Below are positions 2,124 through 22,925 of a DNA stretch of 32,830 nucleotides, piece by piece; position 1 is the first letter of the stretch, and every line of letters starts with the position of its first letter. Origin of the DNA: Rhodospirillales bacterium (lineage in GTDB: Bacteria > Pseudomonadota > Alphaproteobacteria > ATCC43930 > CGMCC-115725); assembly GCA_019689675.1 (NCBI GenBank), contig JADGGZ010000014.1:1-32830 (forward strand). Direction: 5' to 3'. The position numbers and the translations under genes were made by a program. The notes under the pieces are model-generated. The model was given only the letters and a program-made list of their open reading frames with translations. It was not told where the DNA came from and did no database searches.

Positions 2124-3452
2124 ATGGCCCGCGCCCTCGCTCAACTCCGCGCCGAGATCGCCGCGATCCCTGAACAGCGCCGTTACGGGCGCGTCGCCGC
2201 GGTCATGGGAATGCTGCTTGAGATCGCCGGCATGCCGAAAGCGCTCACCGTGGGTGGGCGCTGCGACATCATCGCGCGCGACGGGCGGCGCCTGCCGTGC
2301 GAAGTGGTGGGGTTCCGCGATGGGCGTGCGCTGGCGATGCCGTTCGGCGCCCTGGAAGGCATCGGGCTCGGCTGCCGGGTCGAGATGAGCGCCGGCGTTT
2401 CCGCGGTCTTCCCTCATCGGAGCTGGCTCGGCCGGGTTCTCAACGCTTTTGCCGAGCCGATCGACGGCAAGGGGCCGCTCGCTGCAGGGACTGCGGCCTA
2501 TCCCTTCCGAAACCAGCCGCCGCCAGCGCACAGCCGGCGACGGGTCGGCGAGAAGCTCGATCTCGGCGTGCGGGCGCTCAACACCTTCGTCTCCTGCTGC
2601 CGCGGCCAGCGCATGGGCATCTTCGCCGGATCGGGCGTCGGCAAGTCGGTCCTGCTCTCGATGCTGGCACGGTACACGGCGTCCGACGTGATCGTGATCG
2701 GGCTCATCGGCGAGCGCGGGCGCGAAGTCCAGGAATTCATCGCCGAGGATCTCGGCCCGGAGGGGCTCGCGCGCAGCGTCCTCGTGGTCGCGACCTCGGA
2801 CGAGAGTCCGCTGATGCGGCGTCAGGCGGCGTATCTCACGCTTTCGGTCGCGGAATTCTTTCGGGACCAGGGGCTTCAGGTCCTCTGTCTCATGGACAGT
2901 GTGACGCGCTTCGCGATGGCGCAACGCGAGATCGGCCTTTCGGCCGGGGAGCCGCCGGCGTCGAAAGGCTACACGCCCACCGTCTTCGCCGAGCTGCCTC
3001 GCCTCCTCGAGCGCGCGGGCCCCGGGACGGGCGACGGCGCCATTACCGGACTCTTCACCGTTCTCGTGGAAGGTGACGATCACAACGAGCCGATCGCCGA
3101 CGCCGTCCGCGGAATTCTCGACGGCCACGTCGTGCTCGAACGTCAGATTGCCGAGCGCGGGCGGTATCCCGCGATCAACATTCTGCGCTCGGTATCGCGC
3201 ACCATGCCGGGCTGCAATACGGAGGAGGAGAACCGGTTGGTGAGCGCCGCACGTCAATGCTTGTCGACGTATGAAGACATGTCGGAACTGATCCGCCTCG
3301 GCGCCTACCGCCGCGGCAGCGACGCCAAGGTGGACGAGGCCATCGAGCTCTATCCCGCGCTGGAAAAATTCCTTGCGCAGGGCAAGGACGAGCGCGCCGA
3401 TCTCGAGAGCGGCTACGCCGGCCTCGCTGCTATCCTCGGAGGCCGCTCATGA
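2124..3452 (+). CDS. fliI: Flagellar export ATPase FliI
   Basis: A 442-residue protein, the usual FliI length, related to the F1 beta subunit. It powers the flagellar type III export apparatus at the cytoplasmic face of the basal body. The Walker A motif 'GSGVGKS' is at residues 169-175. The Walker B region '[20 protein letters not shown]' and the export-ATPase segment '[18 protein letters not shown]' follow, and the C-terminal helical region includes '[17 protein letters not shown]'. No good ribosome-binding site precedes the ATG; the nearest purine run, GAGG, is about 15 bases away. The adjacent CtrA-like box could place the transcription start at or near the ATG. fliJ follows with an ATGA overlap. 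The other flagellar genes must lie elsewhere. Confidence 0.96.
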
Positions 3453-3868
3453 GCGCGCTCGACAGCCTGATCCGGCTTTACAAGTGGCAGCTCGACGAAC
3501 GCCGTCAGCAGGTCGCCGAGCTCGAGCGGCTCGAAGACCGGTTGAAGGCCGAGCTTCAGAAGCTCGACCAGGAGACCGCCGGCGAGCGGCAGGTGGCGGC
3601 AACGAACGAGCAAGCGGCACGATCATGGGCGGCCTGGTCCGCCGTCGCCTTGGAACGCCGCAAGACACTCGAGACCTCGATCGCGGAAACCCGCGAGCAG
3701 ATGGAGCGCGCACGCGAAGCGCTCGCCGAGGCCTTCCAGGAAGTGAAGCGGTACGAGATCGCGCTCGCCGCGCGCGAGAAGCGCGAGAAGATCGCTTTTT
3801 CGCGGCGCGCTCAGCAGCGCCAGGACGAGATCGCGCTCCAGACCTTCCGCAACCGACGCAGCGCGTAG
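3449..3868 (+). CDS. fliJ: Flagellar export protein FliJ
   Basis: A 139-residue, highly charged and almost entirely helical protein with heptad-like repeats ('[20 protein letters not shown]', then '[20 protein letters not shown]'), matching the coiled-coil FliJ stalk protein that inserts into the FliI hexamer ring and helps couple ATP hydrolysis to export. Size and position immediately after fliI fit. Its ATG overlaps the fliI TGA by four bases (ATGA), which implies translational coupling. FliJ sequences are poorly conserved, so the call rests on composition, length and synteny. Confidence 0.9.
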
Positions 3869-16956: not shown

Positions 16957-18267
16957 TTAGGTTCTCGCTCGCAGGTCCGGAATCGGCGGCGTCCATTGCG
17001 CCGGTGCGACGCCGGGCGCCGGCCGGCCCCAGATGTTCCCGTGGCGATCCGGCCGTTCCGTGAAATGGGCGACGATGAGCCGGTGCAGCATGTCCATGTT
17101 CGGCAGGATGCCGTGGAATCCAGCGGCCGCGGCGAGGACGCGATCCTGGATTTCCCAGTATCCGAAATCCTCCGGGACGACGCAGACGAGGCTCTCGAGC
17201 GGCAGGAACTTCGGTAGTGCGCCCTCGAACGGCACCGTGCCGTCGCCGGTGCGCCGTGCGATCGCAGGGTCGGGGTCGCTCCAGCGATTGTCCCGGTCGG
17301 CGGAGCTGAAGGTGAAATCGGGCGACCTGCCGACCATGTCGATCTTGAGCTGAATGCGCGTCTCCGCGTTGACGCCGACGACGCAGAGCCAAGAGCTCGG
17401 GTCGAGCCCGCACGCCGCGAGATCGAGCCGGTCGATCCTGGTGCGATGGCGCCGCGCCGCCGTCAGCAACCCTTCGAAAAGCTGGCGCGCCTGCTGGTCG
17501 CGGCCGGTCCGGGCGAGTCCATGCAGGCGAATGTACTCCTTCAGCGTATCGATGATGCTCGGCTGCCACAGAGCCGGATCGAAAAGAGATGTTTGTGGCA
17601 GCCGCGGGTCGAGGATGAGGCCATTCGAGAAGCTCGGCAGCAGCTGATAGAGCGCAGGGGTGATCCGCGCCGCTTCGCGCTCGCGGGAGCTCGGCGCCTT
17701 CTCGCCGAGATTGGCCGTGCCGGTGGTGACCTTGATGACGGCCTCGAAGGAGCCCTGGAATGGCGTCGCGAGGGTCGCGACCTTGTGGACGCGATGCTTC
17801 TTGCCGGTGCGCTCGAGGTAGCCGGCGATCACGAGACCGCCCATCGAATGCCCGACGAGATTCACCTTGGGATCCTCGCCATAGCCCGCGGCGGCGTAGT
17901 GGCGCAGCAGCTTCGTGCGCGCGATGACCTCGTCGATGAAGGCGGCGAGCAGCGCTTCGGTTCGCTCTAGCGGCTGGCGCCAGTCGTAGGCGAAGGGAAA
18001 GACCGGGACGGGCTGATCTTCGCGCGTGCGCAAATTGTGGCGCAGCTCCTCGATCAGCTCCTTGTAGGCGACCTCGAACAATTGTCCTGCGACGACCGCT
18101 GCGGGCTCCTGCGCCTCGTAGCGGAGGTCGTCGGGGTGGAGGGCCGCCCGCTCGTACTCCTTGGTCATCACCGACCACACCGTCTCCGGAGGCAGCGGAT
18201 AGGTGTCCGTGAGGTAGGAGGCGGTGATCCCCGGAACGACGATGGTCGGATAGGCCGGCATGGGCAT
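16957..18267 (-). CDS. LCAT-like alpha/beta-hydrolase (putative lipase or acyltransferase)
   Basis: A 436-residue alpha/beta-hydrolase resembling the lecithin:cholesterol acyltransferase group. The nucleophile elbow 'LVGHSMGG' places Ser141. Asp is likely in 'RRTGDGTVPFEG' and His in 'MDMLHRLIVAHF' near the end, giving a plausible triad in the right order. The early 'IVVPGITAS' supplies the oxyanion-hole region, and 'FPFAYDWRQPLERTEALL' is the LCAT/PGAP1-type DWR segment. There is no signal peptide, so it is predicted cytoplasmic. The ATG has a GGAGGAG site upstream. It could be an esterase, lipase or acyltransferase; the substrate is unknown. It stands alone between the YCII and YihY genes on the same strand. 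Confidence 0.85.
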   Translation of the reverse strand: MPMPAYPTIVVPGITASYLTDTYPLPPETVWSVMTKEYERAALHPDDLRYEAQEPAAVVAGQLFEVAYKELIEELRHNLRTREDQPVPVFPFAYDWRQPLERTEALLAAFIDEVIARTKLLRHYAAAGYGEDPKVNLVGHSMGGLVIAGYLERTGKKHRVHKVATLATPFQGSFEAVIKVTTGTANLGEKAPSSREREAARITPALYQLLPSFSNGLILDPRLPQTSLFDPALWQPSIIDTLKEYIRLHGLARTGRDQQARQLFEGLLTAARRHRTRIDRLDLAACGLDPSSWLCVVGVNAETRIQLKIDMVGRSPDFTFSSADRDNRWSDPDPAIARRTGDGTVPFEGALPKFLPLESLVCVVPEDFGYWEIQDRVLAAAAGFHGILPNMDMLHRLIVAHFTERPDRHGNIWGRPAPGVAPAQWTPPIPDLRART

Positions 18268-21273: not shown

Positions 21274-21549
21274 ATGTACGGGACGAACCACCAGTTCCTG
21301 TCGATTCTCCGCGAGGTCGACAGCCAGATCGGCGCGCTGGAGCTCGCCATCGGCGATGGTGAGGCGCCAGGGCGCGCGGCGCCGGCGCTCGAGGCGCTCT
21401 GGGCCCGGCGCCGTGCCCTGAGACTCCTCTTGCTCAACCGCAAGGTCGAGGCGGCCAAGAAAGTCGTCGATTTTCAGCGCTGGCGCGACGGCAACGGCGC
21501 GCTTTATCTCTTCGCCGCGCCGCCGGGAGCAAAACGGGCGCGCTTCTAG
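21274..21549 (+). CDS. Small helical hypothetical protein
   Basis: A 91-residue, charged, helix-rich protein ('MYGTNHQFLSILREVDSQIG', then 'LEALWARRRALRLLLLNRKV' and 'KVVDFQRWRDGNGALYLF'). No known domain is recognised. The ATG at 21274 is preferred over a GTG seven codons earlier. Its stop overlaps by four bases, tail to tail, the stop of the TssB/TssC-like gene on the other strand. It could be associated with that gene, but nothing in its sequence proves it. Confidence 0.5.
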   Translation: MYGTNHQFLSILREVDSQIGALELAIGDGEAPGRAAPALEALWARRRALRLLLLNRKVEAAKKVVDFQRWRDGNGALYLFAAPPGAKRARF

Positions 21550-22847
21550 GGCGAGACACCGGCGGCACCACGGCCGGCGAGCCTGCCGCCGGCAGCGAGG
21601 CTGCGCCACGCGCCGAGCCGAACCCGGTCGGTATCCCTGATCCAGAGCAGCGACATGAGGCCCGCCTCGTGGAGCAGGTTCGCGGCTCGAATCGAGAGCG
21701 CCGCCTCGGCCGGCGACTGCGCCTCGTCGCCGAGCGGATCCTTTCGAACGTAGAGGGGCAGGCGGTCGAGTTCGGGATCGTCCTTCGAGACCGCCAGCAT
21801 GAGCGCCGCGGCAAGGGCGCCGCTGCCCCAGAGCAGGCGCTCATGCACCGGGCCGTCGGGAAACTCTTCGAACTCGAAGCGCTCGATCGGGTCCGAGGCG
21901 GTCCCGTACGGCAGCCTCAGGAGAAGGCGAGGCGCCACCAGCCCGAGATGCGCCGCTTCCGGTATGCGCATCAGCGCCGCCCAGGCCGCGGCCGCCTCGT
22001 CCGACAGCTCCGCCGTGTGCCAGTCGTCGGGGTCGGGCGTCTCGGCGATCGATCTGCAGCCCGCGAGGGCGGTGTCGCCGCCCGCGAGCAGCGTCGCGTC
22101 GGCTGCCGCCGCGAGCTTCGCCAGACGGCCGAGCAGCGCCGCCGGCCCCGCCTCTGCCGGAAAGCGCCAGAGCGCGACCCAAGTCGCCCACGGTGCCGCA
22201 GGGCTCTCGATCAGCAGCTTCTCGAGCCGCCCGCTCTGCAATCCGGCGAGGAGCTCGGCAGGCGGAAGGTCGATCATGAACAGGCGCACACGGCTGCCTG
22301 TTTCGAGCCGTCCGGCGAGGAGCGCGAGCGAGCGCCAGGCCGATTCGACGCTCTGAAATCCGGGGTCGTGCAGCAGCTTGCGTAGCGCCGCGGCCGCCCT
22401 CGGACCCGGCTTCGCTTCCTCCGGCGCAACCGGGGAGGCGCTCGCCGCCGCTTCGGCGACGAGACGTTCGACCATGCGCTCGGCGTCGCTCTTTCCCGTC
22501 TGTCGTGCGGCGTCTTCCGCCACGATCGTGTCGAGCAACCCCTCGGTCGGGGCGGGGAGCGGCTCCTGCTGCTGCGCCGACGCTTCCGGCGCAGGCTCCT
22601 CGCCGATCGCCATGCGATCGAGAAGACGGTCAGGATGGAAGTCGTCGAGGCCGGTGAACCGCAGCCCGCCGGCGGTCACGTCCATTGCCGCCATGACCGC
22701 GTCGATATTGTCGCGATCGACCTCGACGAGACGGCCCGTTGCCTTGCCGCCGAAATCGCCCATGACGCAGATCCGGTAAACGCGTTCGGTCGCGCGCGAC
22801 CCGGCACCGCCGCCGAACTCGATGCCGCCGATCTCGATTGTCGCCAT
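21546..22847 (-). CDS. Fused TssB/TssC-like contractile sheath protein
   Basis: A 433-residue protein with signs of both sheath subunits of type VI secretion systems. Residues about 20-80 are TssB-like: 'VYRICVMGDFGGKA' (23-36), 'VDRDNIDAVMAAM' (43-55) and 'LDDFHPDRLLDRM' (67-79). An acidic Ala/Pro linker follows (81-150). Residues 155-415 are TssC-like: 'LHDPGFQSVESAWRSLALL' (159-177), 'APRLLLRLPYGTASDPIERF' (305-324), 'FEEFPDGPVHERLLWG' (326-341) and 'AALSIRAANLLHEAGL' near the end. TssC alone is normally near 490 residues, so both parts are shortened. The ATG at 22847 has GGGGGAG upstream. No hcp, vgrG, tssJ-M or clpV gene is nearby. It may be a sheath-like protein of a divergent or reduced system. 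Confidence 0.8.
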   Translation of the reverse strand: MATIEIGGIEFGGGAGSRATERVYRICVMGDFGGKATGRLVEVDRDNIDAVMAAMDVTAGGLRFTGLDDFHPDRLLDRMAIGEEPAPEASAQQQEPLPAPTEGLLDTIVAEDAARQTGKSDAERMVERLVAEAAASASPVAPEEAKPGPRAAAALRKLLHDPGFQSVESAWRSLALLAGRLETGSRVRLFMIDLPPAELLAGLQSGRLEKLLIESPAAPWATWVALWRFPAEAGPAALLGRLAKLAAAADATLLAGGDTALAGCRSIAETPDPDDWHTAELSDEAAAAWAALMRIPEAAHLGLVAPRLLLRLPYGTASDPIERFEFEEFPDGPVHERLLWGSGALAAALMLAVSKDDPELDRLPLYVRKDPLGDEAQSPAEAALSIRAANLLHEAGLMSLLWIRDTDRVRLGAWRSLAAGGRLAGRGAAGVSP

Positions 22848-22925
22848 GGACTCCCCCACTACCCCTGTCGGATGATGCCATCCGAGGCTCGCCTTGGCGA
22901 GCGCGCCTGCCGCATACTCGGCGCC

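Follow-up and report, generated by a model that had tools for sequence, protein, structure and literature searches.

A 433-amino-acid protein, P0001, belongs to a family of short TssB-TssC fusions, of which we gathered 35 members from Alphaproteobacteria, Gammaproteobacteria, and Acidobacteriota by profile searches. As defined here, a member joins a TssB-like N-terminal part, a linker, and the N-terminal domain of TssC in one chain, without PF18945. The family and its link to the type VI secretion system (T6SS) are well supported, and it is very likely that the fusion is a T6SS accessory. Its mechanism, including sheath binding, ClpV binding, and capping, we infer; the chances seem about even that P0001 belongs to an accessory family of trans-encoded, nonpolymerizing mimics of the sheath protomer that bind the sheath and recruit ClpV. 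With its parts drawn from a known machine, the short fusion counts as a variant of that machine and not as a machine of a new kind.

Control of T6SS sheath length and turnover varies among bacteria, and the known helpers TssA, TagA, and TagJ do not occur in all of them. A protein derived from the sheath that has a ClpV-type motif but no handshake domain would add a new class to these helpers. Such proteins are easily missed: databases label them "contractile sheath large subunit," and approximately two-thirds of the genes collected here lie outside T6SS clusters, beyond the reach of cluster-based surveys. We found no paper describing the short TssBC fusion in the open-access literature, which is weak evidence of novelty given the many subscription papers outside it. 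The Tvp accessory proteins (PMC13373197) are VgrG/PAAR chaperones and differ from the short fusion.

Sequence features of P0001

The window, meaning the whole 32.8-kb stretch of DNA analyzed, is an entire contig (C324) of the draft genome G000 (4.22 Mb, 423 contigs, 98% complete), and the view of the gene's surroundings stops at the contig ends. The coding sequence of P0001 occupies positions 21546 to 22847 on the minus strand, with an ATG at 22847 and a stop codon at 21546 to 21548. Direct reading of the sequence places a purine-rich, Shine-Dalgarno-like GGGGGAG at 22851 to 22857 (minus strand), 3 bases upstream of the ATG, where it may function as such a site. The open reading frame is intact, and its GC content by codon position is coding-like.

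The initial annotation described the product as a TssB-TssC-like fusion and proposed VipA and TssC profile searches, which confirmed a cut-down sheath fusion. P0001 matched Pfam VipB (PF05943) well above the cutoff (E = 1.2e-27; 97.2 bits, cutoff 27) and VipA (PF05591) weakly and below the cutoff (E = 0.0017; 18.6 bits, cutoff 24). Scores against the NCBIfam models TIGR03355 (1.6e-27, 96.5 bits) and TIGR03358 (0.0015, 18.3 bits) were far under the equivalog cutoffs of 271.5 and 97.25, respectively. The match to the TssB families (PF05591 and TIGR03358) is restricted to residues 21 to 58, well short of full length. Using phmmer, P0001 also retrieved solved TssC chains from the PDB (best E = 8.6e-23). 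The weak N-terminal VipA match is not a chance result, because all 32 family members scanned matched both families, and in better-preserved relatives the VipA match was strong (best 8.1e-20).

Three segments can be distinguished, all on the minus strand. The TssB-like segment (residues 1 to 80, positions 22608 to 22847) includes beta strands at residues 24 to 30 and 40 to 43 and the motifs GDFGG, DRDNID, and DDFHPD; the TssB-type helix that follows HPD in most relatives is deleted. The low-complexity linker (residues 83 to 150, positions 22398 to 22601; pLDDT mostly <66) contains a conserved hydrophobic motif, LLDTIV (residues 104 to 109, positions 22521 to 22538), within a predicted helix spanning residues 104 to 117. 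The TssC-like segment (residues 149 to 417, positions 21597 to 22403) lies inside a stretch matching TssC residues ~63 to 399, and the C-terminal gpW/gp25-like domain of ~95 residues is absent. With its TssB helix lost and its N-terminal strand weak, P0001 ranks with the more degenerate proteins in the family.

Two other genes in the window were recorded as side observations. An LCAT-like alpha/beta hydrolase (PF02450), a possible lipase, is encoded at 16957 to 18267 on the minus strand, ~3.3 kb from the fusion; we saw no evidence for a T6SS effector role. A FliI/SctN-type ATPase (ATP-synt_ab and T3SS_ATPase_C) at 2124 to 3868 on the plus strand is followed by an open reading frame for a FliJ-like coiled coil, and no further flagellar or type III gene was recognized in the 32.8 kb.

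The host genome encodes a T6SS on other contigs

The gene was initially annotated as isolated, with no other secretion genes. Within the 32.8-kb window this holds, as no T6SS gene was recognized among the other open reading frames; genome-wide it does not, since T6SS genes lie on four other contigs. Contig C266 ends with tssA-tssB-tssC1; C404 carries tssC2, tagJ/impE, tssE, tssF, and tssG and ends just past tssG; C331 carries clpV-hcp-vgrG-DUF6931; and C381 starts at tssL (DotU-OmpA) and includes tssM. The earlier suggestion of a repurposed sheath or a scattered system is thus borne out, in that a cut-down sheath fusion accompanies a T6SS encoded on other contigs. The one gene missing is tssK, the place of which would coincide with a contig break. 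The imp-type gene order of Agrobacterium, which we take to apply here, would put FHA and tssK in the gap between tssG on C404 and tssL on C381, and the absence of tssK is probably a contig gap. G000 therefore has an ordinary and probably complete T6SS with a separate TssB and two TssC proteins of its own. These two are the TssC-like open reading frames found besides P0001, and both TssC1 and TssC2 match PF18945 (1.4e-47 and 3e-44).

The DUF6931 protein (L199:1488-2015, on C331) adjoins vgrG of the host T6SS, and the T6SS cluster of Centralia_MAG_132 seems to hold a similar protein (L028:13887-14543).

A distinct family of short fusions

Carriers made up 16 of the 369 gammaproteobacterial genomes and 14 of the 297 Acidobacteriota genomes sampled, and the cut-down architecture also occurs in Centralia_MAG_132, Blastocatellia, Aliikangiella, G187, G524, and G728. 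PF18945 was found in none of the 32 fusions scanned, each of which matched both PF05943 and PF05591, and was present in the canonical TssC controls (both from G000 and one from G003). On a family profile, fusions scored at least 359 bits versus at most 303 bits for canonical TssC; P0001, itself included in the profile, scored 378.8 bits. A quick IQ-TREE analysis of the shared TssC region placed the 35 fusions and 37 TssC sequences on two sides of one branch with SH-aLRT support of 100, although relations inside the fusion family are unsure because several fusions have long branches, which we flagged. Domain 2 and the core motifs (LPYG, FEE, and W) are conserved across the family. Many members also have an N-terminal strand-like segment of the MEFxF type ahead of the core, which is absent in two members and weak in P0001. 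The idea of a simple paralogue fails on these data: the fusions lack the handshake domain that the tested canonical TssC proteins have, and a long branch sets them apart as a clade of their own.

L035 (Citrifermentans), although raised by the family search, is an ordinary adjacent tssB-tssC pair, and a phage origin of P0001 was dismissed after tblastn gave no match in 50,697 phage records. With P0001 as the query, no plasmid relatives were found at 1e-5; the Aliikangiella member as the query led to complete Rhodobacterales T6SS plasmids.

Predicted fold and the missing handshake domain

The AlphaFold2 model of P0001 (pLDDT 83.7, pTM 0.80) and an AlphaFold model of the Blastocatellia member (pLDDT 84.7, pTM 0.81) both align to solved TssC chains over residues ~63 to ~399 and go no further, with Z scores to 5n8n_B of 28.7 and 35.1, respectively. 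According to these models, P0001 is predicted to fold as a single-chain sheath protomer comprising domain 2 and part of domain 3. In Pseudomonas aeruginosa TssB1C1, the tube-forming handshake consists of TssC strands beta11, beta12, and beta13 and the N-terminal strand beta1 of TssB (PMC5807055). Since the TssC strands responsible for receiving and donating beta strands from one subunit to the next are missing, P0001 should not polymerize as a sheath.

A predicted ClpV-motif-like helix in the linker

Across 32 members, linker columns 104, 105, 108, and 109 are hydrophobic in 72, 100, 91, and 100% of sequences, respectively (L104, L105, I108, and V109 in P0001), and the rest of the linker, a disordered region, is polar. 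An LLxxIL-like motif is present in effectively all members, and both AlphaFold models predict a helix there at low confidence. A similar LLDQIL-like motif occurs at the N terminus of 40 of 69 canonical TssC proteins. In Vibrio cholerae, ClpV is bound through the LLDEII motif of VipB (PMC4239648; see also PMC5048182), and LLDTIV of P0001 occupies the place of this ClpV-binding N-terminal helix of canonical TssC. It is an even question whether the linker motif recruits ClpV; a short hydrophobic motif of this sort could have a different partner.

Genomic context and co-occurrence with T6SS genes

Among the 35 carrier genomes, the fusion lies within ~21 kb of T6SS genes in 12 and on another contig or far away in 22, counts that draft assemblies blur; in the remaining one (G995, 5.4 Mb; fusion at L175 1394-2923), neither canonical TssC nor TssM was detected. 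Several unlinked members sit on contigs measuring between 150 kb and 1 Mb, and in G1030 the fusion and the T6SS are ~3.9 Mb apart on one 4.98-Mb contig. The location is stable in Acidobacteriota, where up to seven genomes have the unlinked gene beside mnmG-parA-parB-tatA-tatC. The neighbors of linked members are clpV, vgrG, PAAR, tssK, or FHA genes. The fusion of Centralia_MAG_132 is flanked by clpV and PAAR/vgrG within a full T6SS cluster, and on complete Rhodobacterales plasmids the gene is inside full clusters between tssH and vgrG, annotated "contractile sheath large subunit" alongside normal tssB and tssC.

Carriers almost always have a T6SS. Canonical TssC was found in 15 of 16 gammaproteobacterial carriers compared to 69 of 369 genomes overall (19%; Fisher 4e-11, kinship ignored) and in 14 of 14 Acidobacteriota carriers, nine of them close kin, compared to 46 of 297 overall (15%; Fisher 7e-13, kinship ignored). 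TssF and ClpV were found in all seven carriers tested. Separately, a locus in G309 (L070, 10189-13453) holds the C-terminal part of a TssC next to fragments resembling TssF and TssG, with no other T6SS gene in view, apparently a decaying system.

Proposed role and alternative explanations

A sheath-like shape, the absence of the handshake domain, and a ClpV-like motif together suggest that the fusion contacts the sheath or its subunits and brings ClpV, or that it caps the sheath end. A chain that joins the N-terminal half of TssB to the first three-quarters of TssC, lacking the handshake domain, would bind the sheath of a canonical T6SS whose genes lie elsewhere; the likeliest sites are an exposed sheath end or free subunits. 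The ClpV-motif-like helix in the flexible linker would then recruit ClpV to the bound site, and sheath length and recycling would be capped or tuned. End capping taken by itself is rather unlikely. We hold only tentatively, if slightly more readily, the wider proposal that these proteins are an undescribed, widespread T6SS component, a nonpolymerizing protomer mimic, often encoded off-cluster, that determines sheath length or recycling by capping the sheath or bringing ClpV to it. Counted against the accessory/ClpV reading are the carrier without detected TssC or TssM, the degeneracy of P0001, and the many linked members beside vgrG or PAAR genes.

That last observation is what favors the best-surviving alternative, in which the fusion is an adaptor at the spike or baseplate end that loads or positions VgrG/PAAR or effectors, its sheath-like fold fitting the first sheath ring on the baseplate. 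One or both of vgrG and PAAR lie beside the fusion or a few kilobases from it in Centralia_MAG_132, on the Rhodobacterales plasmids, in the gammaproteobacterial genomes G980 and G849 (counted as unlinked, with vgrG adjoining the fusion), and in G948. However, most Acidobacteriota members and several gammaproteobacterial members are in housekeeping surroundings without vgrG, and the linker motif resembles a ClpV site, not a known VgrG adaptor; we consider this role unlikely.

Still less probable is that the fusion is a decaying gene left from a lost second T6SS, even though P0001 is both short and divergent and stands by itself on its contig and the related genome G003 retains a member inside a full T6SS cluster. 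The reading frame is intact and coding-like in composition, the core and linker motif are conserved, and the unlinked state is widespread (22 of 35 genomes) and, in up to seven genomes of Acidobacteriota, syntenic beside mnmG-parA-parB. The initial annotation had offered a remnant as one explanation; a random remnant is unlikely for a single clade on the tree that is conserved across three large groups, and we rejected a lone remnant as the main reading, given a conserved family in which unlinked loci are common.

Conservation of domain 2 and the core motifs would also fit a minor sheath subunit that copolymerizes with TssB/TssC and alters the sheath, but the handshake domain is missing from all 32 fusions scanned, which leaves them unable to receive or provide the TssC strands that a subunit needs within the lattice (PMC5807055) and makes this improbable. 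Most improbable is a moonlighting scaffold that works outside the T6SS. Unlinked loci in unrelated neighborhoods and G995 would suit it, but the presence of canonical TssC in 29 of the 30 carriers in the two samples, against a 15 to 19% background, speaks against it.

Comparison with known sheath proteins and variation in the family

Like the sheath large subunit TssC/VipB (PF05943 and PF18945; TIGR03355), the fusion has the domain 2 fold, LExxWR, PRxLxRLPYG, FEE, and W, and an LLDxI-like motif close to where the TssC part begins; unlike it, the fusion has no C-terminal gpW/gp25-like domain, places its TssC part behind a TssB-like part, and forms a separate clade. With the small subunit TssB/VipA (PF05591; TIGR03358) the N terminus shares strands and the motifs GDFSG, DRDNxD, and DDFHP, but only the N-terminal portion is present, scores fall under the family cutoffs, and P0001 has the helix deleted. 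R-pyocin, eCIS, and phage single-chain sheath proteins have an N-to-C layout equivalent to TssB plus TssC (Z ~14 to 18 to the fusion models) and carry the C-terminal part that the short fusion lacks. TagJ/HsiE (ImpE), an accessory linking the sheath to ClpV (PMC4239648), is comparable in working only; its domains (TPR and ImpE) are unrelated to the fusion, and in G000 tagJ is on C404.

Full-length TssB-TssC fusions also join both subunits in one chain (L008:940-2865, 641 aa; L013:1096-3087, 663 aa), but these genuine fused sheath genes differ from the short fusions in that the C-terminal domain is retained and the tree places them with canonical TssC. Both come from small-genome Alphaproteobacteria, one with a genome of only ~0.6 Mb.

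Among the short fusions, the Rhodobacterales, Centralia, and G994 members end in D-ELAxLL-type tails. A side observation concerns L198:12465-15656 (Qingshengfaniella plasmid) and L196:13821-15731: the fusion has an acidic N-terminal extension of ~500 amino acids with many LDDLLxxL-type repeats, and the Phaeobacter homologue has similar but shorter tails. These may be arrays of short binding motifs.
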